Assembly: GCA_027492035.1 (NCBI GenBank)
Contig: JAOZFT010000008.1
Location: forward strand, 1-62,419
Direction: 5' to 3'
DNA length: 62,419 nt
Source: Thermoproteota archaeon
GTDB lineage: Archaea > Korarchaeota > JAOZGF01 > JAOZFZ01
Shown here: piece by piece, positions 27,896-40,070 of the stretch
How positions within the stretch are numbered: the stretch's first letter is position 1
Layout of the letters: each line of letters starts with the position of its first letter
Made by a program: the position numbers and the translations under genes
The notes under the pieces: model-generated
Databases searched by the model: none
Told to the model about the DNA's origin: nothing
Seen by the model: only the letters and a program-made list of their open reading frames with translations

Positions 27896-28384
27896 TTATT
27901 TTATTATTTCTAATTTAGTTATTCTTAGGTAACCTTTATCTTCCAGGTCCAGAATTCTGTCAAGAATTGTTGACATCGGGGTTTCTAAAGCATTGGAAGC
28001 TTCTATTAAGTTTATTTCGTTCTTATCGCTTAAGTAGGCAGATATGAGTAGATCGATTTCAGAGGGATTTTCTCCTTCCTCCTCCTTATTTGTGTACTCA
28101 TAATTAATTTTTAAATGAGGTGCAATTGCAAGGAATTCTGATTCTGAGTGGTAATAAAATAAGGCTATCAATAGACTTGAAATAAGCCCCAAGATTAAAA
28201 GGGCGTAAATTTGCCATGTAAATGCGTAATTAAGCATGGAAAGAGAGATTATTAGCGTTAAAATGAAAGTGAAAGTCCCTATTTCGAAACTTGAAATAAA
28301 GCATCTTTTTCTTCTCTTGTTATAAATTTCTTTAATTTGTTTGTTAACCATGGTTAGGTACTTCCTTCGGAGGATTTCCTCCAT
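27896..28384 (-). CDS. Two-pass membrane protein with a possible C-terminal winged-helix domain
   Basis: About 162 residues from the ATG at 28384 (an upstream TTG at 28417 would add 11 residues). A basic N-terminal stretch (KQIKEIYNKRRKR) is followed by two hydrophobic segments (about 35-80), an acidic linker, and a final 55 residues. That last part, with LLISAYLSDKNEINLIEASNAL and STILDRILDLEDKGYLRITK, has the helix-turn-helix-wing spacing of a small winged-helix domain. This would be a membrane-tethered one-component regulator or an adaptor. It sits 3' of the surface cluster on the same strand, with repeat copy 2 about 160 bases before its start. The family is not recognised. Confidence 0.55.
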   Translation of the reverse strand: MEEILRRKYLTMVNKQIKEIYNKRRKRCFISSFEIGTFTFILTLIISLSMLNYAFTWQIYALLILGLISSLLIALFYYHSESEFLAIAPHLKINYEYTNKEEEGENPSEIDLLISAYLSDKNEINLIEASNALETPMSTILDRILDLEDKGYLRITKLEIIK

Positions 28385-28546
28385 TTTAATGCATCTCTTT
28401 AGGTAGAGGGGCAACAATAAATTCTTCCTAAATGAAAAATTTTCAACATTAAAAAGGGCTATCTTGGATTATTGAGGGAAGTTGATCCTTAAATTTAAAT
28501 TTTACGTTTTTTAAAAAGCTCAGAAGAAAGTAGAGCTGATTTTCAG

Positions 28547-28693: not shown

Positions 28694-31600
28694 TCATTTA
28701 TTTCCTGTAAGATATTGTTGATAAGTTTGAGTTTTTAACCCCATTGCCTCAGCTATTTTCGTCACAGGAGAATTAACTAAAATAACTTGTTTAGCTTTCA
28801 CCTTTGAAGCTGCAATTAAGGCGCTGAGCTGCTCCGGGTTAAACCCTTCTCTTCGAAGGTAGTAAAGTAAAGCTGCATCTACACCTGAGAAGGGTATAAC
28901 TTGCACTAAACCGCCTGAAACCAGTTCATCTAGAACTGTTTTGAGGCTGCGATCCTTTAAAGCCTCAATAAGAGTGTACTCTGAAATAACTAAATTTGAA
29001 GTTTGTTCCAGGAAAGAAGCGAGAAGCTGCATGACATGAAGATTTTTTAGGGATTGATAATCTATCACTGTAAATTTCTTCCTCCTTTTCAAGGCAAAAA
29101 GGGATAATGGAGCTATTAAAGGAAAAACTGCAGCGAACGATGCATAAACTACAGGTTTTATAGCGGGTTGATGCACTGCAGCTGAAGCCAAGCCAATAGG
29201 TAAAGTGGGGGAGGGGGAAGGAATAGGAGAGGTAATGGGGGAAGGAGTGGGAGAGGGGGAAGGAGTAGGAGAAAAAGGAGGGGGGGTATAGGGAGGAGGT
29301 GGGGTAGCTGGGGAAGGTGAAGGGATAGTGGGGGTAGGAGTTTTTGGAGGCGGCGAGGTGAGAGGAGGTGGAGGGACAGGTGGAGTTGTTTTTATACAGG
29401 TGATTTGAGGTTCCTTTACGACTCCACTTAAGAAATAAGTGTTTTTAATTACTTCATGTAAAGATACAGATGTTCCATGAATTAAGGGTTGAACAGTGTA
29501 GTTTACAAGTGCGTAATAAATTGGGGTGTAATTGGTTGGGGTTATGTCGGAGTAAGTGTTAGAGTACCATTTTTCTCCAGGTTTAATTAACACGTTTGGG
29601 TTCTCTTGAAAAATTAACCTGCCTGAAATATTTTTTTCCCTTACGGAAACTTCACTTATATTGTATGAAATTTCTTCAGCTGTGTTTATTACTGAAACGT
29701 TAACTTCCCACCCATTACTTATTTTCTTTTTAGTTAAGCATATGTCAGCGGGACCTACTGCCTTAACGGATTTAATTCTTTCTCCAAGTAAGGTTTCATT
29801 GTTTCTGTAACTCAAATAAGCTGCAGGTAAGGTTGCGTTGAAGGAGGGGGTGAGAATTAGGTTTAAAGTTAATGATTCACTACTTCCCTTCTTTGACGAA
29901 GCCATACTCCAATTAATTTGGTGAGTAGTGTAAGAAAGAACCCCTTTCGTGACAGTTGCTGAAGCAATTTTCACCCAGGAGGGGAACTCTTTGAAGTAAC
30001 TAACATTTTCAATGTCTTGGAAGGTATTAATTTCCACGTTTAATTGACCTTTCCTCTCTTCTCCACAAATTGATGGAGAGAAAGAAAGGAATTCATAAAC
30101 ATTTAGAGGAACTACTGCATATTTAGGGTCGATTTGATATTTCCACCTAACATAATCGCCTGGCCTCAAATTATTAATGTGGAGAGGAGGAGGTACTGGC
30201 GTGTTTGAGGGGGAGGGGTAGTCGAGGTAAAAAGTTACGCCGGTATTGTTAATTTTTACCCATATGTCTGAAAGCGTGTCATTCGTCGGGTTCGAAACTG
30301 TTAAGAAACCGAAAAGTTTGGAGATGTGGAAGGAACCGTCTGGGTAAAAGGTTGCATCCAAATATTCTCTGATTTCCAAGTGGAGGTAGTTGTTTGGGGA
30401 TCCTTTAACTGAAGGAATAAACATGAAAGAAAGTGTGGCAGGCAAAATAAAAAACAAGACTTTATATAACACTTTACATTTCCCTTTTCTTCTCCTTAAT
30501 TGCTTTAAAGAAATTAAAAATAGGGAAAGAGAAAGTGGGAAAATGGTTTCAGTTAACTGCATAAATTTCCTTTCTTCATGTGTCATTTCTTTAACTTCTT
30601 CTTCAATTTTAGGGTCTAAACCTACTTCATAAGCCTTTAAGGTGAAGTATTGTGAGGGACAGGTTGAGGCAGTTAATGTGTAGTTTATGACTTTGAAATT
30701 GTTGGGGTAGGTGTTACCTAAAAAGGAAATGTTCCAGTAATAAATTGTTCCGTCTGTAGTGGATAGGCTTCCGTTATAGTTAGGTTGAGGGTTAACGACA
30801 AGGAAGCCTGAAGGCGCAAAATCGTAAACTACAGCGTTGTAAAGGGGGGTGCCAGCGAAGTTAGTTATGTTCAATGAAACATTGTAACTGCAAGGGTTCA
30901 CTCCTTCCTTCACTGACTTCTTAACACTTAAATTGTAGAGTATTTGTTGAATTCGGTAATTTAAACTGAACTCCGAAGTTCCGTTCCCGGGCAAAGTAGC
31001 TGTGGAAGTCACCCAATCCCCAACTTCAACTCCTTTACCTGTAACGTTTATTTCACAGTTGAAAGAGTTATTGGAGGGGTAAGTTGTACAGTTCCCTAAA
31101 TAAATTAATCCTTCACCGTGGTAAGGAGAAGCGTCGTTTGTGACGCCTGGGTTTGGATTATTTGAACCATTAAATGTGGAGAGATAGAATTCAATGGTTG
31201 AGTTAGCGAAAACAGATTGCGAGGGATAAAGACCAACAAATCCTTTCACATACAGAAAGTTTTTACTTAAATAAATAGATGAAATGTTTGGAAAGTCCAT
31301 GCCGTTGTTAGGTTGACTTGTATTTAGTAACCCGTCATTGTTTGTGACACCGTCTCCTTTAACGCTTCCAGATGAATCGTCACATAAATCTATACCGAGG
31401 CCTGTGTTATTGTAGAAGGCGTTACGGGTTATTGTTACATTGAAGCTGTTCCCGTAACTTGAAATTCTCCAATTAGAAACTATTAAACCAACTAGGTTGT
31501 CATGTAAAACATTGTTCTCCACTCTTACATTTCTGCAGCCCCTGTCAACTAAAACTCCGTAACCTGAACTGTTAACGACGGTGTTGTTTAAAAAGTAAAC

Positions 31601-34600
31601 ATTTCTTAAATTTCCCAGTAATTCAACAGCCCCACCGTCTAAACGGGAAGTGTCAGCTTCACAGTCCCTAATAAGGTTGTACTCTACAGTTACATTGTTT
31701 CCTTGTAAAAGGTCAATAGCTTCACTTGTTTTACTTGAACCCATGTTAGCTTCAAATAATTCACAATACTTAACTTCTAAATTGTTTCCTCCCCCTCTCA
31801 CTAAACCCCAGGAGGAGTAGCCAATATAGGACCCTGTAACTTTTATGTTTTGGTTGTTGACATAAATTATTTCACGTGAAGCACTTGGTTGCCCTGGATA
31901 ACTACCATCTGCCCTAACACCTAGTAAACATCCTTTAATCTGAGACCCTGCTCCATTTAAATAAATTAAACTTGTTACTCCAGTGAAACCGTAAACTGAA
32001 ACGTTTACAAGTAAAAAGTTAGCTCCATCCACTCTTAAACCATAGGAACCTGAAACGTCTATGTTGATTTCTATTTCAGGTTTACTGTAAAAGGGAAGTT
32101 TTTCCTCATCCCCTGTATTTGGTTCAACGTCCCCTCCTATACCTACGGTTCCTCCACTGCCAATTACTCCTTTATTGGTATCCACCCAGTTAAACAATGA
32201 ATTAAACACTGTACCATTAACCACTGTCCCTGAATCTTCAACGTAAGGGAGCCCCCCAACAGTTGAGTTAAGATTTATTCTCCACCATTTATGCTGGATA
32301 TCCTGGACAACGTTAGGGTTCACCATCATCACAAACCAGCTTCTGTCAGGGCCGGTTATAGCGTTAGAATTGATTATGAATTGTCTAAAAGACCCTTGAA
32401 CTGTCCTTGGCTCTGTTGGAGAATCATCAGCATCTCTAGTGTTCACTATCACGTCAAAACTAAAACCAAAATCCACATTTGGTATATAGCATTTAGTGGC
32501 GTTAATAAAAGATACATGCTCATAATGGTTGAAAGATGCGTTTACACTGGAGGAGTTCCAGTAATCACTTACTTCAGGGTCAACCCCGCCAAATTCTGAG
32601 CCGCAATTCAATGTTGAACCTGTGTAATTGCATCCGTAGGTTTGTTCAGCCCAAACATAGGTTTGATCATAGCCTGAATTGTAGCCGTTATTTGCAGGGG
32701 CAGGTTTTACATCTCTCGAATTCACAGTCACAAAGTAGACTCCAGTTTTTTTAACAAAAACAATGTAGTAACCTGTTGAATTAGTGGTTGCATTATAAAC
32801 ATTTACATCTCCGCCGTCAAGTGTTCCGTCTCCATCATCTACGAAAACCCTTACTTCAACACCAGATTTACCCTCGTCACCGGGTTCAAAAGGGTCTCCC
32901 CTGGAGTCAGAGTCCTCAAAAACCCTGCCCTCAATCTGGCAAAGGACAGTGAAGTTAGTTTCATCTATGTTGAAATACGTTGTGTAGTTTTCAGGGTCCG
33001 TAGGTCTCCCAGGGATATGGATTAAACCGTTCTTTGAAGGATCAATTGTAGAGGTTGACAAATCTTTAGCGTAAACTTTAACCTCCCATTCTCCGCATGG
33101 ATCAGAGGGTTTTATTACGTAAACGTTACTGTTTGTGAATACGCCATCTCCTGCTGTCACGTCTCCATGCGTGCCGTCATCATATAGAGTCGCAGTAGTT
33201 TTAATATTTCCTTCGGAATCAATAACTTCAGCTATTATACTTCTAGTAGGAGCTGCATCAACCGCAGCTGTAACATTAACAACATCTCCATAAGTGTAGT
33301 TCCCTTTTGGAGAGGTTAGGTTAACACCAAACCCCTCAGCCATAGCAGCTTGAAGAGTTGCGGTAACTGGGCACCAAACAACGTCGTCAATATATACCCA
33401 AGTTTTATAGTAAGGGTCATAATATGTGTGAAGGTTAAAGTAAACCCTTAAGGTTTGGCCTGCATAAGGAGATAAACTGTAGAGATAAGTTAACCAGCCT
33501 GAATCAGCGTAATAACCATAACTCCAACCTGGGTTTGGGTTGTATCCTGAAATCAATGTAGCCAACACCGTGTTGCTTGTATCTCTTAATGTCACTGTTA
33601 AGTAGTCATAGTATGCTGAGTCCCAACTTTCAACGCGGTAAGAGAAATATAGGTTTCCACCATCCGAAGGAACAGTAAATTGGTAGTATGCCCAAGTGTT
33701 TTCACCATTAGGTGTCAAATCTTCATCATTGTCTCTGTAACCCATCAAGAGAGAGTAATTTCCAGTGTAGGGGGCTCCGCTGTCTATTATTGGTGAAGGG
33801 GAACCATAATTGTCGTATACAGTATATGGCCCTCTTGGACTAGCTTCTATTTGTGAATTAATGTTAGGTGGGTTTCTGCCATAAACCCAATAAGAAAGAC
33901 TTCCTGATTCCAGACCTGTATTTAAAGTGTCAAGGCTTGTTTTCGCTCCATTTTCCAGTATGTCAAAGTAAATGTAATAAGTTGTTGCTGAAGGTAGGTT
34001 TTTATCTAAAATGAACCTTACAGTTCCTACTCCGTTACTTACGGGTATGTATTCTTGGGAAGGCACCAAGTTGCCTTCATCATTAATTACCCTTACCGAA
34101 TTCGGGTCAAAAGTCCCTGTTATGTTAAGTCTACTAAGCAAATTACTAAAGTTAACATAAACTGTTATCACGTGGTTTTGCTGCGTTGAAGGTATTGACA
34201 CAGGCACTCTGTAGTGCCAGTCTTCACCGTTGTTAGGACCATCAGGGTCCCACCATTCCGGGACATTGTAGAGGATGTAATAGTACCTGTTTGGGTCGTC
34301 ATAAAAAATTACTTCATTCCCTTCCTGAACCCAAATTTTTATTTCTTCTACTACGTTACCAACTTTTTTAAAAACCTTGAACGCCTGTGCACCCCTCGGT
34401 AGGTAAGCTTTTAACCTAACCCATTTATTCCTTGTTTTGTTTTCAAGAATCACTGTGACTTTCTTGTTAAGAAGGTCTATTACTTGGTGAACCTTAATTT
34501 CTCTCTTCCCCATTATTAATTTTTCAATTAGTAGATTGCAGTTGCTTGGAACAAAGATTGATCCGTTAAATATTTTTATCCTTGCTCTCCCAATTAGGAG

Positions 34601-36706
34601 GTGCGTTCCGTAACTTTTTAGGAGGGTGAGGTTTAGGATGCCTTGTGTAGTGTTTAAAAGTGTAACTTGCCATATTGCATTAATGCCTGAAGCGTTAAGT
34701 TTATTTATGAGCTTAAGTGAAGCATGTTTTTCTACTTTCAGTTTTTGAATTTTCCTAGGTTTTGAGACAACACCACCAATAATAGATGTTATTACGCCAT
34801 TTTCTTTCTTATCTAAGTCCCCATATTTCCCATCTGTTAAATTCACTTTGATCGATGAACTATTTATTTTAAAGAACCTTACAATGCTTAAATTCCTTTT
34901 TTTAGGGTCGTAAACTTTAACTCCGGAAATGTTTAATGGGAAATTTATTAGTAAAGAGACATTACCCCCCCTCTTCATTTTTACAATTAACTTAAATAAG
35001 CCTAAAGGGAACTCCTCCTTTCCCCAAGTTAAATTTGTTAATGAGTAGTTTAAGTGTTTAAGGGAGAGGATTGTTCCCTCCAAGGCTTTAAATTGGACAA
35101 GGTGCCCTTTAATACGTGGTTTTGTGGTTTTGGGTTTAAGTTCTAGAACCTCCAGCGAAGTTACTCTTGAGACCGTACAACCTTTTCTACTTACATTTAC
35201 TAGGATTAGGTAGCTTCCAGGTTTGAGTTTGCCAAGTTTTAAAGAAAAACTGCCGTTAGTAAGAAATTTTCCTCTCTTAATTATTAAATTTTCCTCCTTT
35301 TCTTTAACAAAATAGGTTACGTCGAGTTTCAGGGGTTTATTTGTTGAAACAAACCCCTTAAGAGTAACTGATTTATTCTTCGGAACACTTAATTTCTTTG
35401 GTAAAAAGAAAGTGAAGTTACACGGCGTAGTTGGGGGACGAGACTTGACAATCAACGTAGTTTTGAGTGAAGATTTTAGAGAGAACCAGCTTGAATTAAT
35501 TAATAAAGTGTAGTTTCCAGTTGTTAAATTTATTTTAAAAACAGCTTCCCCGTTTAAGGTTTCCCCCTTTAACTTATATTCCTTATTTTTGTTGTAGATT
35601 AAAACTGAAACGTTTGCTTTATCTACTAAACCTGAAGAAACTCTTTGAACAATTACTTTTAAAGTTTCTTCACCTGTGAACATTTTTTCCGGTAAATGGA
35701 CGTAAGTTTTTAATATATCCACAGTAAATTGTACGGAGCAATTTTTTCTCTTCTTCTCACTTAAAGCTTCAGCGTAAACACGGTATTTCCCAAGAGAAAC
35801 TGAACTGTTTAAGTTATAAAGGGAGTAATACGTTAGGTTTGTTAATTTAATGGGTTTTACGTTTATTTCTCTTCCATCAGGGGTTTTAATTTTAATAAGT
35901 AGTTTGTAAACTTCTTTTGTGGAGTTAATTAATAGTTTAACTGTTTCCCCAGGTGAATACGTTAGTTTATTTGTTTTTATTGTGAGTTTAAATGGTTTGG
36001 GAGGTTGCTTTGTTTGGTTAAGTGACGCATTAATACTTGCGGAAAAACTTCCCTTTATTCCCCTTTCATCAATTACTTCCCCGGTGAGGTGGTAATAATT
36101 GTCAGTTAAATTATTTAATAACAAGAAGGTTTCTCCATTCTCTATTTCCAGACTAAAGGATTTCTTTTGAGATTTGGAAGTTAAGGTTAGGTTTATTTTT
36201 CCGTTAACTTTTTCCTGGGTTAAATAGTCTTCAGCAAAGAATTTAACAAGCCAGGCAATAACGTTTTTCCGTGAAACTTTGACCTTGGCTTTTAGGGAAG
36301 TTATTGTGAAGGAAGTTGAAGTTAACTCCTCTTCCCCTATTTTTAAAGTTGCAGCATATCTTCCTAAAACTATATTTGATGAGAAATTTGTAACTGCCTC
36401 AAAAAGTGTTTCATTTATTTCTTTCAAGCATAAAATAAACGATTTGTTCAGCGGAGAAACTATTTCAATGTAACTCTCGTTTAAGGTTTTATTTTCCATG
36501 TTTAAAAGATAAGTTAGGTTTCCTGAAACGAATACCCTTATTTCGTCGAAGGGGTTGTAGAAACGTTTTTCAGGGTAAATTTCCAAGTTAATTATGGGTT
36601 GAGAGTAACTTAAATTGTTAATTAAAGAAATGAGAAGTATGGAGACAAGGAGAGAATGAACAATTCTTTTCTGTATTTTTTTGAGTTTAGAAACGTGAAT
36701 AAACAA
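28694..36706 (-). CDS. Giant multidomain surface protein (2670 residues), apparent in-frame fusion of two surface proteins
   Basis: TTG start with AGGAGG six bases upstream. Residues 10-35 are a signal peptide. About 40-800: repeated macroglobulin-like/Ig-like beta domains (for example KLTYSPGETVKL). About 828-915: a DUF2341-like segment starting WHYRVPV. About 925-1120: a jelly-roll-like domain rich in Tyr/Trp. About 1120-1215: a domain ending in DDGTHGDVTAGDGVF. About 1255-1345: an SdrD-B-like carrier domain (DSDSRGDPFEPGDEG). About 1400-1800: a right-handed beta-helix region with many NN/NV turns. About 1920-2040: DUF11-like. At 2050-2072 lies a hydrophobic segment plus LRRRKGK, then a second signal-peptide-like segment at 2079-2101 and a new ectodomain. 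After that come a Pro/Ser/Thr-rich linker (about 2440-2505), a membrane helix (about 2512-2535) and a cytoplasmic domain of about 120 residues that resembles a degenerate PIN fold. It is the last gene of the minus-strand trio. Confidence 0.8.
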   Translation of the reverse strand: MFIHVSKLKKIQKRIVHSLLVSILLISLINNLSYSQPIINLEIYPEKRFYNPFDEIRVFVSGNLTYLLNMENKTLNESYIEIVSPLNKSFILCLKEINETLFEAVTNFSSNIVLGRYAATLKIGEEELTSTSFTITSLKAKVKVSRKNVIAWLVKFFAEDYLTQEKVNGKINLTLTSKSQKKSFSLEIENGETFLLLNNLTDNYYHLTGEVIDERGIKGSFSASINASLNQTKQPPKPFKLTIKTNKLTYSPGETVKLLINSTKEVYKLLIKIKTPDGREINVKPIKLTNLTYYSLYNLNSSVSLGKYRVYAEALSEKKRKNCSVQFTVDILKTYVHLPEKMFTGEETLKVIVQRVSSGLVDKANVSVLIYNKNKEYKLKGETLNGEAVFKINLTTGNYTLLINSSWFSLKSSLKTTLIVKSRPPTTPCNFTFFLPKKLSVPKNKSVTLKGFVSTNKPLKLDVTYFVKEKEENLIIKRGKFLTNGSFSLKLGKLKPGSYLILVNVSRKGCTVSRVTSLEVLELKPKTTKPRIKGHLVQFKALEGTILSLKHLNYSLTNLTWGKEEFPLGLFKLIVKMKRGGNVSLLINFPLNISGVKVYDPKKRNLSIVRFFKINSSSIKVNLTDGKYGDLDKKENGVITSIIGGVVSKPRKIQKLKVEKHASLKLINKLNASGINAIWQVTLLNTTQGILNLTLLKSYGTHLLIGRARIKIFNGSIFVPSNCNLLIEKLIMGKREIKVHQVIDLLNKKVTVILENKTRNKWVRLKAYLPRGAQAFKVFKKVGNVVEEIKIWVQEGNEVIFYDDPNRYYYILYNVPEWWDPDGPNNGEDWHYRVPVSIPSTQQNHVITVYVNFSNLLSRLNITGTFDPNSVRVINDEGNLVPSQEYIPVSNGVGTVRFILDKNLPSATTYYIYFDILENGAKTSLDTLNTGLESGSLSYWVYGRNPPNINSQIEASPRGPYTVYDNYGSPSPIIDSGAPYTGNYSLLMGYRDNDEDLTPNGENTWAYYQFTVPSDGGNLYFSYRVESWDSAYYDYLTVTLRDTSNTVLATLISGYNPNPGWSYGYYADSGWLTYLYSLSPYAGQTLRVYFNLHTYYDPYYKTWVYIDDVVWCPVTATLQAAMAEGFGVNLTSPKGNYTYGDVVNVTAAVDAAPTRSIIAEVIDSEGNIKTTATLYDDGTHGDVTAGDGVFTNSNVYVIKPSDPCGEWEVKVYAKDLSTSTIDPSKNGLIHIPGRPTDPENYTTYFNIDETNFTVLCQIEGRVFEDSDSRGDPFEPGDEGKSGVEVRVFVDDGDGTLDGGDVNVYNATTNSTGYYIVFVKKTGVYFVTVNSRDVKPAPANNGYNSGYDQTYVWAEQTYGCNYTGSTLNCGSEFGGVDPEVSDYWNSSSVNASFNHYEHVSFINATKCYIPNVDFGFSFDVIVNTRDADDSPTEPRTVQGSFRQFIINSNAITGPDRSWFVMMVNPNVVQDIQHKWWRINLNSTVGGLPYVEDSGTVVNGTVFNSLFNWVDTNKGVIGSGGTVGIGGDVEPNTGDEEKLPFYSKPEIEINIDVSGSYGLRVDGANFLLVNVSVYGFTGVTSLIYLNGAGSQIKGCLLGVRADGSYPGQPSASREIIYVNNQNIKVTGSYIGYSSWGLVRGGGNNLEVKYCELFEANMGSSKTSEAIDLLQGNNVTVEYNLIRDCEADTSRLDGGAVELLGNLRNVYFLNNTVVNSSGYGVLVDRGCRNVRVENNVLHDNLVGLIVSNWRISSYGNSFNVTITRNAFYNNTGLGIDLCDDSSGSVKGDGVTNNDGLLNTSQPNNGMDFPNISSIYLSKNFLYVKGFVGLYPSQSVFANSTIEFYLSTFNGSNNPNPGVTNDASPYHGEGLIYLGNCTTYPSNNSFNCEINVTGKGVEVGDWVTSTATLPGNGTSEFSLNYRIQQILYNLSVKKSVKEGVNPCSYNVSLNITNFAGTPLYNAVVYDFAPSGFLVVNPQPNYNGSLSTTDGTIYYWNISFLGNTYPNNFKVINYTLTASTCPSQYFTLKAYEVGLDPKIEEEVKEMTHEERKFMQLTETIFPLSLSLFLISLKQLRRRKGKCKVLYKVLFFILPATLSFMFIPSVKGSPNNYLHLEIREYLDATFYPDGSFHISKLFGFLTVSNPTNDTLSDIWVKINNTGVTFYLDYPSPSNTPVPPPLHINNLRPGDYVRWKYQIDPKYAVVPLNVYEFLSFSPSICGEERKGQLNVEINTFQDIENVSYFKEFPSWVKIASATVTKGVLSYTTHQINWSMASSKKGSSESLTLNLILTPSFNATLPAAYLSYRNNETLLGERIKSVKAVGPADICLTKKKISNGWEVNVSVINTAEEISYNISEVSVREKNISGRLIFQENPNVLIKPGEKWYSNTYSDITPTNYTPIYYALVNYTVQPLIHGTSVSLHEVIKNTYFLSGVVKEPQITCIKTTPPVPPPPLTSPPPKTPTPTIPSPSPATPPPPYTPPPFSPTPSPSPTPSPITSPIPSPSPTLPIGLASAAVHQPAIKPVVYASFAAVFPLIAPLSLFALKRRKKFTVIDYQSLKNLHVMQLLASFLEQTSNLVISEYTLIEALKDRSLKTVLDELVSGGLVQVIPFSGVDAALLYYLRREGFNPEQLSALIAASKVKAKQVILVNSPVTKIAEAMGLKTQTYQQYLTGNK
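30470..30505 (-). promoter_or_regulatory. Possible internal translation start (GTG at 30472) inside the giant surface gene
   Basis: On the minus strand the sequence AAGGAGAAGAAAAGGG precedes an in-frame GTG (codon 2079) that opens a signal-peptide-like run, VLYKVLFFILPATLSFMF. AAGGG sits about nine bases before this GTG and AAGGAG about eighteen. No stop codon separates it from the preceding membrane anchor. A separate second protein could therefore be initiated here; whether it is cannot be told from sequence. Confidence 0.4.
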
Positions 36707-36764: not shown

Positions 36765-37520
36765 TTATAGTTTTTTTAAGATTTTTCTGTAAATAAGTAG
36801 AGTTATTCCAGTTAGGAGTATTGTGCACCAAAAAAGGATATAGCCTTGTAAAGGCAAGAGTGGGAAGGGGAATTTACTGAATTCACAGTTCACTTTAATT
36901 CTTTCACCAGGTTCAAAATTGGTTATTTTTAAAGTGCCACCGTGAACTAATTGCTTGGAGCTGTAAGTGAAATGGTACCCCCTCGGTAGGTGAAGAATAA
37001 TTTCCCCATTTTTTATTTCTGAAGAAAAGGGCCCTATTTCAAAATTTAACTCGTTAAAAATTAATCCTTCAGCCACTATCCCCCTAACCATCAACGTTAC
37101 TTGGAAGGGGTATTCTCCGTTAGGTTCTATTGGGTCCCAAAGGGAATACCTTACCGCAACATTTCCTTTGCTACGTAAAACAATTGCTTCCTTTTCCTGT
37201 TTTGTTTCTGGGTTTTCAGCTGAAACCTTTTTAACTGTTAAACTGCTTCCCTTGATGAAGGGACTTAATGTGAAACCTGTTTCTTTACATGAAATATTTA
37301 TTATGCCATAACCTGGAACCACGTGCACGTTTGCAGTGTTTTTGTAGACACCGTAAAAAATGATTTGGGCTGAATTGTTTTCGAAAAAGAAAATATTGAT
37401 GCTTAATTTTTCGATTTTTAAGGGGTTAAGTTCATTTTGTGAAAAACTAGTCTGGGGAATTAGAAGCAATAAAAAAAGTAGGGTGGAGAAGGTGGCAACC
37501 CCTATTTTTCCCCTTTTCAC
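36765..37520 (-). CDS. Surface protein with signal peptide and C-terminal membrane anchor
   Basis: A 251-residue protein: signal peptide at about 5-28 ending TSFSQ, a beta-rich exterior part, and a C-terminal hydrophobic segment (about 222-245) closed by a basic tail RKILKKL. GTG start preceded by AAGAGGTA. It lies 17 bases after the 742-codon-class gene and 58 bases before the giant gene, so the three form one operon. The exterior resembles a single beta-sandwich pair with an LPRGYHF segment; no named domain is recognised. Confidence 0.7.
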   Translation of the reverse strand: MKRGKIGVATFSTLLFLLLLIPQTSFSQNELNPLKIEKLSINIFFFENNSAQIIFYGVYKNTANVHVVPGYGIINISCKETGFTLSPFIKGSSLTVKKVSAENPETKQEKEAIVLRSKGNVAVRYSLWDPIEPNGEYPFQVTLMVRGIVAEGLIFNELNFEIGPFSSEIKNGEIILHLPRGYHFTYSSKQLVHGGTLKITNFEPGERIKVNCEFSKFPFPLLPLQGYILFWCTILLTGITLLIYRKILKKL

Positions 37521-37537: not shown

Positions 37538-39745
37538 TTATTCAGTTAAAGATTCCTTGCCACCCTTTTTATTTTTCAGTTTCAGTGGAAATAGGGCGGA
37601 GACAAAGACAGCTGCACCTAAGGTAGCAAGTAAATATTCGAAAGTCACTGTCCCTGATGACAGGCTTGTTTCAGGCTGGAAAATCGCTAAAGCATTTAAT
37701 GTATGCCTGGGATCCACCCCAACAATGAAAAGGTCAAGCGCTTTATAGACTCCTGTGCCGCTTACATTGTAGTAAATTATTACAGGATTTGTAACATTTA
37801 TTCCAAGATTTGTATAGAACCCCTTTGCTGAAACAACAACTTTACCTCCCTCGGTTGAGTTCAGGGAGTCCTGAATAAAGGTTACTGTGAAATTGGTTTC
37901 TGAAGATAAGCCGCTATTTACTGTGAAGTTTGCTCCTTCGTTGTAATTTGTGCCATTAATATTTACCGCTGAGTTGCTTACAGGGTATACAGTCCATGTT
38001 CTTTGGGTTCCGTCAGTTAAAGTCACGTTAACATTTTCTTGGTTAGATGACCCTGTTCCATTGAACCATTCAGCGAAACCATGTTGAGGAGCAGGCATTG
38101 GGTAAATATCCCAAACGTAGCCTCCACTGTAACCTGTAGGGGTTGTTTTTCTGGAGTAGTCAGGTGGACTGTTCGCGTCAGCATCGTTAGCTAACATGCT
38201 TAAGGGTTTAAAGATCATTCCACCTTCCGTAGCTGGAGGATCAGGGTTGAAATTGGTCGGAACCAAATCGTAAACTGAAACGTATGGAGATGTCCACTGC
38301 CCTAAATTATGTACTTCAATTAATATGTTGTATTTATTTGGTGTGGAGGGGTCAGATCTAACTTCCTTGACAGCCTTGATTAAATACCCTTTAACAACCC
38401 AAACTTTTTCAATTACTAAGTAGGTTGAGTTACCGTCAGGTTTTTCACTATTCCTTGTATAGTTGTAAACCCACCAGCCTTTCTGTTGATCTTTAGCTAT
38501 CCTGAATTTATCAATAACCCAAATTTTAGGTACTCCATTATAGGTAAAGTTAAGGCCTCCATCTGAGTAGTTTCCTAAAGGTTCAACAGTTGCTATTGGG
38601 TCTCCCGTAACAGAATGGCTAGAACCGCTTACTAATGTAGAGTCAGGTGTGTCCCCTTGGGTTGCCCAAGTTGTCATGTTGTAAAGTTCATACTTGAAAG
38701 TTGCGCTTGTACTGTAGAAAATATTTGTTTCATTCCATGTATTAGTTGCATAAGTGCCTTGTTCCTTTCTTGCCTCAATATCCGCTTGCCCAATTGAGAA
38801 AATGTACCCTAAAGTTGTGTTTGTGAATGTTTTTTGGGCTGTGAAGTAGACATAAACTCTGCCTATTTCTATTTTGGTAGTTTGTCCCCCTACTTCGCTT
38901 AGGTCAGGGGTTCCTTGCACCTGAAAGTTCCTTATTGTACCACTTGCACCGCTGTTTAAGGTGAACCAGTTGTCAGGCCAGTCACCGTTGCTTGTCCAGT
39001 TTAATCTTTTATTGTCTGATGTTAAACCTGTGTTTCCAACTGTAGCTGTTCCTGCACTTGTGAATTGGGGGTTATTGGCAACGGCGTTGCTCCAGCCATC
39101 GTTGCTTGTCCCGTCAGCTGGTAGGATTTTTCTCACCCTGAAATTAACAGTGTACCATAAATTGTTGGTGATGGTTAAGTTTATTGTTAAAGTTTGACTT
39201 TGCCCATCCACTATTTTGTTGGGTGAAACTTTTTCACTCACAGTTATAGGGGGGCATTGGGGTTGGTTTCCACCTGTCCAGGTGACAGTGTACCAAAGAA
39301 CAACTCGGTCTCCACTTCTTAATTCAGTTACATGGACCCATTTATCGGCTTGGTTGTTAGGGAATTTACTTTTTATCTCTGAAGGAACATTTCCAGCAAG
39401 AATTTCACTTACGTCTGCATATGTTGGTTTTTCGTAAGGTATTGTCCAGGTGTATGTGTAAGTTGAGTTTTCATTTATTGGGATCCATATGTCTGAAACT
39501 GTTTCCCCTGTGTTGCTGTTCCAAATTGTTATGTTCCCTGAGACGTTCCATGCTCTGCAGTGAGTATTTACTCCATCTGTCTCAATTGTAGCATTAAGGT
39601 ACTCTGTAACATTCACAAGTAGGGGTGCATCTGGTAATCCATAAGCTTTAAAGCTTAAAGGAGCCGTTGAGGGAGTGTAGAAGAGAAATACTAGAAACAA
39701 TGTTGAAACAAGCATCACTTTAATTTTTGTATTTGATGCTCCCAT
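37538..39745 (-). CDS. Surface protein with DUF11-like domain and C-terminal anchor
   Basis: About 735 residues from the ATG at 39745, which has GAGAGGTG nine bases upstream (an earlier ATG at 39766 overlaps that ribosome site). A signal peptide is followed by the segment EYLNATIETDG...VSDIWIPIN, which is clearly related to EYLDATFYPDG...LSDIWVKIN in the second half of the giant protein. A DUF11-like domain lies near residues 440-560 (KAVKEVRSDPS, VYDLVP). The end FIVGVDPR, a membrane helix and KLKNKKGGK is mirrored at the join of the giant protein. It heads the surface operon. Confidence 0.75.
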   Translation of the reverse strand: MGASNTKIKVMLVSTLFLVFLFYTPSTAPLSFKAYGLPDAPLLVNVTEYLNATIETDGVNTHCRAWNVSGNITIWNSNTGETVSDIWIPINENSTYTYTWTIPYEKPTYADVSEILAGNVPSEIKSKFPNNQADKWVHVTELRSGDRVVLWYTVTWTGGNQPQCPPITVSEKVSPNKIVDGQSQTLTINLTITNNLWYTVNFRVRKILPADGTSNDGWSNAVANNPQFTSAGTATVGNTGLTSDNKRLNWTSNGDWPDNWFTLNSGASGTIRNFQVQGTPDLSEVGGQTTKIEIGRVYVYFTAQKTFTNTTLGYIFSIGQADIEARKEQGTYATNTWNETNIFYSTSATFKYELYNMTTWATQGDTPDSTLVSGSSHSVTGDPIATVEPLGNYSDGGLNFTYNGVPKIWVIDKFRIAKDQQKGWWVYNYTRNSEKPDGNSTYLVIEKVWVVKGYLIKAVKEVRSDPSTPNKYNILIEVHNLGQWTSPYVSVYDLVPTNFNPDPPATEGGMIFKPLSMLANDADANSPPDYSRKTTPTGYSGGYVWDIYPMPAPQHGFAEWFNGTGSSNQENVNVTLTDGTQRTWTVYPVSNSAVNINGTNYNEGANFTVNSGLSSETNFTVTFIQDSLNSTEGGKVVVSAKGFYTNLGINVTNPVIIYYNVSGTGVYKALDLFIVGVDPRHTLNALAIFQPETSLSSGTVTFEYLLATLGAAVFVSALFPLKLKNKKGGKESLTE

Positions 39746-40070
39746 AAAAAAAGCACCTCTCAACATGTTTTTGTTTAAACGTTTTTCAATTTTTCAAAGA
39801 AAAGATTTTGGAAAAAGAATTCTGGAAACTATTTAAATTTTTTCCTTTAATTAGCTCTGTCGACGGACTAAAAAAAGGACTTTAAGTACTTATTTTATGT
39901 ATTTTCTGTCTTCACATAACTTTTGTTACCTCTAAAGGGAACAGACACAGTTCTCGTTTTTTAAGCGGATTTCATAATGCAAAAAAATTTAAAAAGAATT
40001 TACATATTTTCAAAAATGTTTTATTAAATATATTCATTTTCAAATTTTTGTCTTGAAGGAGTGGAAGAAA
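39746..40070. other. Divergent promoter region between the surface operon and an aminotransferase
   Basis: No gene. Minus-strand TATA-like TTTAAATAG near 39832-39842 would serve the surface operon. Repeat copy 3 lies just upstream of it at 39878-39912. On the plus strand TTTATTAAATATATTC near 40019-40033 could serve the aminotransferase, giving a very short leader. Confidence 0.45.
39878..39912. repeat. GACTTAAAGTA repeat, copy 3 (diverged)
   Basis: Reads GACTTTAAGTACTTATTTTA then TGTATTTTCTGTCTTC. It shares the GACTTnAAGTA-TATTTTA core and the TCTTC end with copy 2. It lies about 130 bases upstream of the first gene of the surface operon, next to its likely TATA box, a position suited to an operator. 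Confidence 0.5.

Follow-up and report, generated by a model that had tools for sequence, protein, structure and literature searches.

A giant korarchaeal surface-protein gene suggests an incomplete fusion of two genes or a product cleaved in two during membrane passage

The window analyzed here, by which we mean the whole stretch of 62,419 nucleotides, is one contig out of 42 from a genome of 1.87 Mb. On one of its strands lie genes A, B, C, and D, arranged as in the cluster of Korarchaeia, where the products of A and B measure about 700 and about 230 aa, that of C measures 2500–3290 aa, and D encodes a small protein. Gene A of the window (37538–39766, minus strand) encodes a surface protein of 742 aa and is conserved beside B and C in Korarchaeia, at about 45–50% identity. 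Gene B (36765–37520, minus strand) is conserved between A and C and encodes a protein of 251 aa with a signal peptide and a C-terminal anchor. The small gene D (27896–28417, minus strand) has an equivalent place in relatives and encodes membrane segments followed by a winged-helix-like end; in all complete Korarchaeia loci it adjoins C. Its product matches the Pfam family HTH_24 weakly (E = 0.015) and is possibly a membrane-bound regulator. The A-B-C cluster is uncharacterized and spans Korarchaeia and methanogens; a literature search for MJ1396 or for the cluster found no relevant paper, and a search for relatives among viral contigs found none.

Gene C (28694–36706, minus strand) carries an N half (Cn) and a C half (Cc) in one frame. 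The initial annotation had described a giant single frame that joins two surface proteins, and the open-frame check bears this out, with 2670 codons, zero internal stops and a TTG start codon preceded by a strong Shine-Dalgarno match (−12.8 kcal/mol). The Cn half (codons 1–2032; 30611–36706, minus strand) is homologous to separate genes of other archaea that end at VGxDP. It consists of a signal peptide, a long ectodomain, a right-handed beta helix at about 31508–31975 (Pfam Beta_helix match) and a last beta domain ending in VGLDP. The Cc half (codons 2103–2670; 28694–30400, minus strand) is homologous to stand-alone Cc proteins and comprises an ectodomain beginning with EYL, a Pro-rich stalk, a C-terminal anchor (29096–29152), and a cytoplasmic PIN-like domain (about 28697–29086). 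The likely stalk is a Pro/Thr/Ser-rich low-complexity linker immediately outside the anchor (codons 2437–2503; 29197–29400, minus strand). The PIN-like fold of this cytoplasmic tail of Cc (28697–29119, minus strand) was recognized with AlphaFold (pLDDT 82) and Foldseek; in the PDB it best matches PIN proteins, among them Pyrococcus horikoshii VapC4, with a TM-score of about 0.65. Judged by eye, its acidic residues appear incomplete. Tails resembling this domain are also present in Cc of two other archaea (G234 and G383). A PIN-like domain following a giant surface protein is an unusual arrangement.

The two halves are linked by an insert of 70 residues, which runs from a weak hydrophobic stretch through the basic loop KQLRRRKGKCK to a strong segment of signal-peptide type. 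From the N-terminal side, the join reads VGLDP (codons 2028–2032), the charged stretch KIEEEVKEMTHEERKFMQLTET, a first hydrophobic run of 13 residues, IFPLSLSLFLISL (codons 2055–2067; 30506–30544), KQLRRRKGKCK, a second hydrophobic run, VLYKVLFFILPATLSFMFIPSVKG (codons 2079–2102; 30401–30472, minus strand), and then SPNNYLHLEIREYLDATFYPDG. Everything between VGLDP and the second run forms an extra tail of weak hydropathy (codons 2033–2078; 30473–30610, minus strand) that is absent from all relatives. The second run ends in SVKG, is followed by SPNN...EYLDATFYPDG, and has a (−3, −1) pattern of V-K-G that is compatible with a cut after residue 2102. In an AlphaFold run on residues 1925–2450 together with four related sequences, beta domains flank the insert, which itself was modeled as a low-confidence helix.

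The initial annotation had placed both a membrane anchor and a new signal peptide in the middle of the protein, and hydropathy upholds the second of these better than the first. The internal signal-like segment reaches a KD19 value of 2.06, comparable to the values at the two genuine ends of the protein (N-terminal signal, 1.88; C-terminal anchor, 2.00). The first run reaches 1.42, which is within the range of ectodomain maxima (0.91–1.65) and below all C-terminal anchors of the family (1.64–2.48). At the internal signal of gene C, the signal itself is thus strong but the preceding candidate stop-transfer segment is weak. Six basic residues come after the weak run. In shape and distance from EYL, the internal segment correlates with the signal peptides of korarchaeal A proteins (r = 0.81) more closely than with seamless joins (r = 0.47), and its spacing to EYL resembles that seen in A-family signal peptides and in the signal peptide of a stand-alone korarchaeal Cc (genome G015). 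The correlation with outgroup Cc signal peptides is only 0.06, because those lie nearer to EYR. The comparison with neighbor A made in the initial annotation is accurate, since A begins with EYLNATIETDG and ends in VGVDPR...LKLKNKKGGK.

In 13 Korarchaeia genomes (G003–G010, G013, G014, G019, G020, and G026, several of them on partial contigs), gene C likewise crosses the border in one frame, but there the halves meet seamlessly: VGxDP is followed by a few residues and then by the next domain, without any hydrophobic or membrane segment. These fusions share with the window the cluster, both halves in one frame, the N-terminal signal and the C-terminal anchor, and differ from it at the join, where the hydrophobic and basic insert of the window aligns to a clean gap in the other sequences. 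Hydrophobic segments are missing from this position in all related fused proteins, so the segment is special to the window. Related genomes had been proposed as a check on the reading of two joined surface proteins; the 13 relatives are continuous and lack a signal peptide at the border, which speaks in part against that reading, yet the clean fusion is theirs and not the window's. Gene order matches in these 13 genomes and in the two-gene genomes described below, which led us to reject a gross assembly chimera as the origin of the join. The window's family (f1) is not that of most relatives (f3), and the locus is absent from G001 and G002, its nearest relatives among the compared genomes. Phylum-mates include Ca. 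Methanodesulfokora washburnensis, which the NCBI taxonomy places in the class Korarchaeia.

One korarchaeon, G015, carries the halves as unlinked genes. Its Cc, a gene of 858 aa that encodes a separate signal peptide, occupies the customary position between B and D, whereas its Cn, a gene of 2672 aa, is located on a separate contig and ends in VGVDPPGYCPLWWQEGGK, 13 residues past VGxDP and without an anchor. In the gene A tree, G015 is nested among the fused genomes (100/99), and its split is therefore most simply read as secondary. The G015 split shows that the fusion process is reversible.

Outside Korarchaeia, Cn and Cc are two neighboring genes in 11 genomes of other archaea, including methanogens (G111, the same record as L080; G252, G336, G352, G383, G070, G251, G217, G234, L082, and L083). 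A gene A profile located the cluster in L080, L082, and L083, and a profile of the Cn end added further genomes; a scan of genome contigs using the C half alone gave no match, whereas the A-family profile did. In the two-gene genomes, Cn stops 1–6 codons past VGxDP, with neither anchor nor tail, and Cc starts −4 to +72 bases from Cn, often with a 4-base ATGA overlap, and begins with a signal peptide followed by EYR. We consequently dropped the idea that a membrane anchor usually terminates the first protein. The join itself was rightly described as the end of one surface protein meeting the start of another, as the 11 genomes have a stop and a fresh signal peptide there. In two further genomes (G077 and G292) Cn also stops at the border, and the next gene is not Cc. 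Cn of G234, which we take to be Methanocaldococcus jannaschii, is 2894 aa long. The same genome also carries a protein of 987 aa in which a Cn piece is fused to an A-type protein (L117: 3888–6851), which indicates that domain swaps inside the cluster are recurrent.

Compared with the two-gene pairs (L080, L082, L083, and G234), the window has the same VGxDP ending of Cn, the same A and B neighbors and a predicted signal peptide before the EY domain of Cc, called from hydropathy, spacing and position. It differs in that the pairs have a stop after VGxDP, an ATGA overlap or short gap and no tail on Cn, whereas the frame of the window is open. Because 11 genomes of other archaea separate Cn and Cc exactly there, comparison of the sequences demonstrates that the join position corresponds to an ancestral gene boundary and that the signal-like segment is located at this boundary. 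Altogether, the border is fused in 13 genomes, separate in 11 and unlinked in one, and among the compared loci only that of the window retains a gene-boundary signal within an open frame.

We consider it probable, at roughly 60%, that gene C arose by in-frame fusion of the neighboring ancestral Cn and Cc genes and kept the second signal peptide, preceded by a hydrophobic-plus-basic tail. Fusion of exported proteins poses a topology problem, as after stop loss alone the second signal peptide becomes a stop-transfer segment and the second protein stays inside. Here the translocating chain would meet the old signal peptide as such a segment, leaving Cc in the cytoplasm. Two ways would keep Cc outside: deletion of the signal, as in the other Korarchaeia, or an extra membrane segment before it, as in the window. 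Cytoplasmic loops carry basic residues (the positive-inside rule), and a weak segment followed by a basic cluster would for this reason fit the second way. The chain probably forms a hairpin across the membrane, with the weak segment running inwards, the basic loop in the cytoplasm and the signal segment running outwards, so that both ectodomains would be outside. Signal peptidase may cut the chain after VKG-2102; the N half would then stay attached through its tail, and the C half through an anchor of its own. More tentatively, gene C could encode an archaeal polyprotein whose chain crosses the membrane repeatedly and from which signal peptidase yields two equimolar surface proteins. It would then preserve a fusion intermediate, with the initial gene pair and the final seamless form each still found among relatives.

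The simplest history suggested by these loci is a fusion that set out from two genes and halted before reaching the seamless form of the other Korarchaeia. The trees of gene A and of Cn both leave the branching order at the base of Korarchaeia, including the window's branch, without resolution, so that the term intermediate is not proven. Korarchaeia form one group in the gene A tree, whereas the Cn tree places the Korarchaeum group (G003–G006 and G020) together with Cn sequences of euryarchaea (L080, G252, and G336), which hints at exchange of the giant gene or at more than one fusion. The insert has a GC content of 0.289, within the lowest 4% of the ORF, a weak hint that it was formerly spacer DNA. 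We found no copy of it elsewhere in the genome, the best match being at chance level (E = 0.015, 29% identity, containing a stop), and rejected an origin from another place in the genome.

A stop codon or a one-base shift at the join could instead have been lost in assembly or vary between strains, Cc being an ordinary gene that starts from the GTG at 30472. All outgroups carry two genes at the border, a single change would turn many loop codons into stops, and an out-of-frame ATG-TAA lies near the join. The GTG pointed out by the initial annotation is present, with AAGGG nine bases upstream, and has a modest ribosome-site match. This match (−5.3) ranks only 18th among the 74 in-frame start-like codons inside the ORF and does not rise above background, so that the proposed internal initiation loses its Shine-Dalgarno support. 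The assembly is moreover continuous and clean through the join, and 13 relatives are fused too. Since the tail is missing from stand-alone Cn genes, its 46 codons (135 bases, in frame and free of stops) would still call for an explanation. We therefore regard a hidden stop as unlikely. An insert gained late is still harder to accept. On this view, seamless fusion was already present in the korarchaeal ancestor, and the lineage of the window afterwards acquired the insert as an extra membrane hairpin, leaving the protein uncut, with one anchor midway and another at its end. The wide occurrence of seamless fusion in Korarchaeia speaks for it, as does G015, whose secondary split from within the fused genomes (100/99) left a signal peptide on Cc and indicates that such gains happen. 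The position of the insert nevertheless coincides precisely with the ancestral gene border, and in location and form the second half of the insert matches a signal peptide of the family; a random hairpin would need neither.

Under the preferred reading, a fusion that kept the second signal peptide, one border offers a natural series: a gene pair, a single frame that retains the signal, a seamless fusion, and a renewed split. How cells pass the topology barrier is therefore directly testable. That Cn and Cc have been joined repeatedly argues for a joint role of the two at the cell surface. Surface genes commonly occur both in fused and in separate form; the new element is the boundary signal retained inside an open frame. 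Tetrabrachion of Staphylothermus is an archaeal surface precursor that is cut into two chains, although it is not known to use an internal signal peptide. Like it, gene C encodes a single archaeal surface precursor, which the cut proposed here would divide. A comparable layout is found in fbcH of Bradyrhizobium, which encodes cytochrome b and c1 as one chain cut at an internal signal sequence, and viral glycoprotein precursors with internal signals. As proposed for gene C, a single frame encodes two exported proteins with a signal peptide in the middle, after a membrane segment, for which gene C has a weak candidate. Cutting is established for those precursors, whereas in the window it is proposed, for giant surface proteins of an archaeon.
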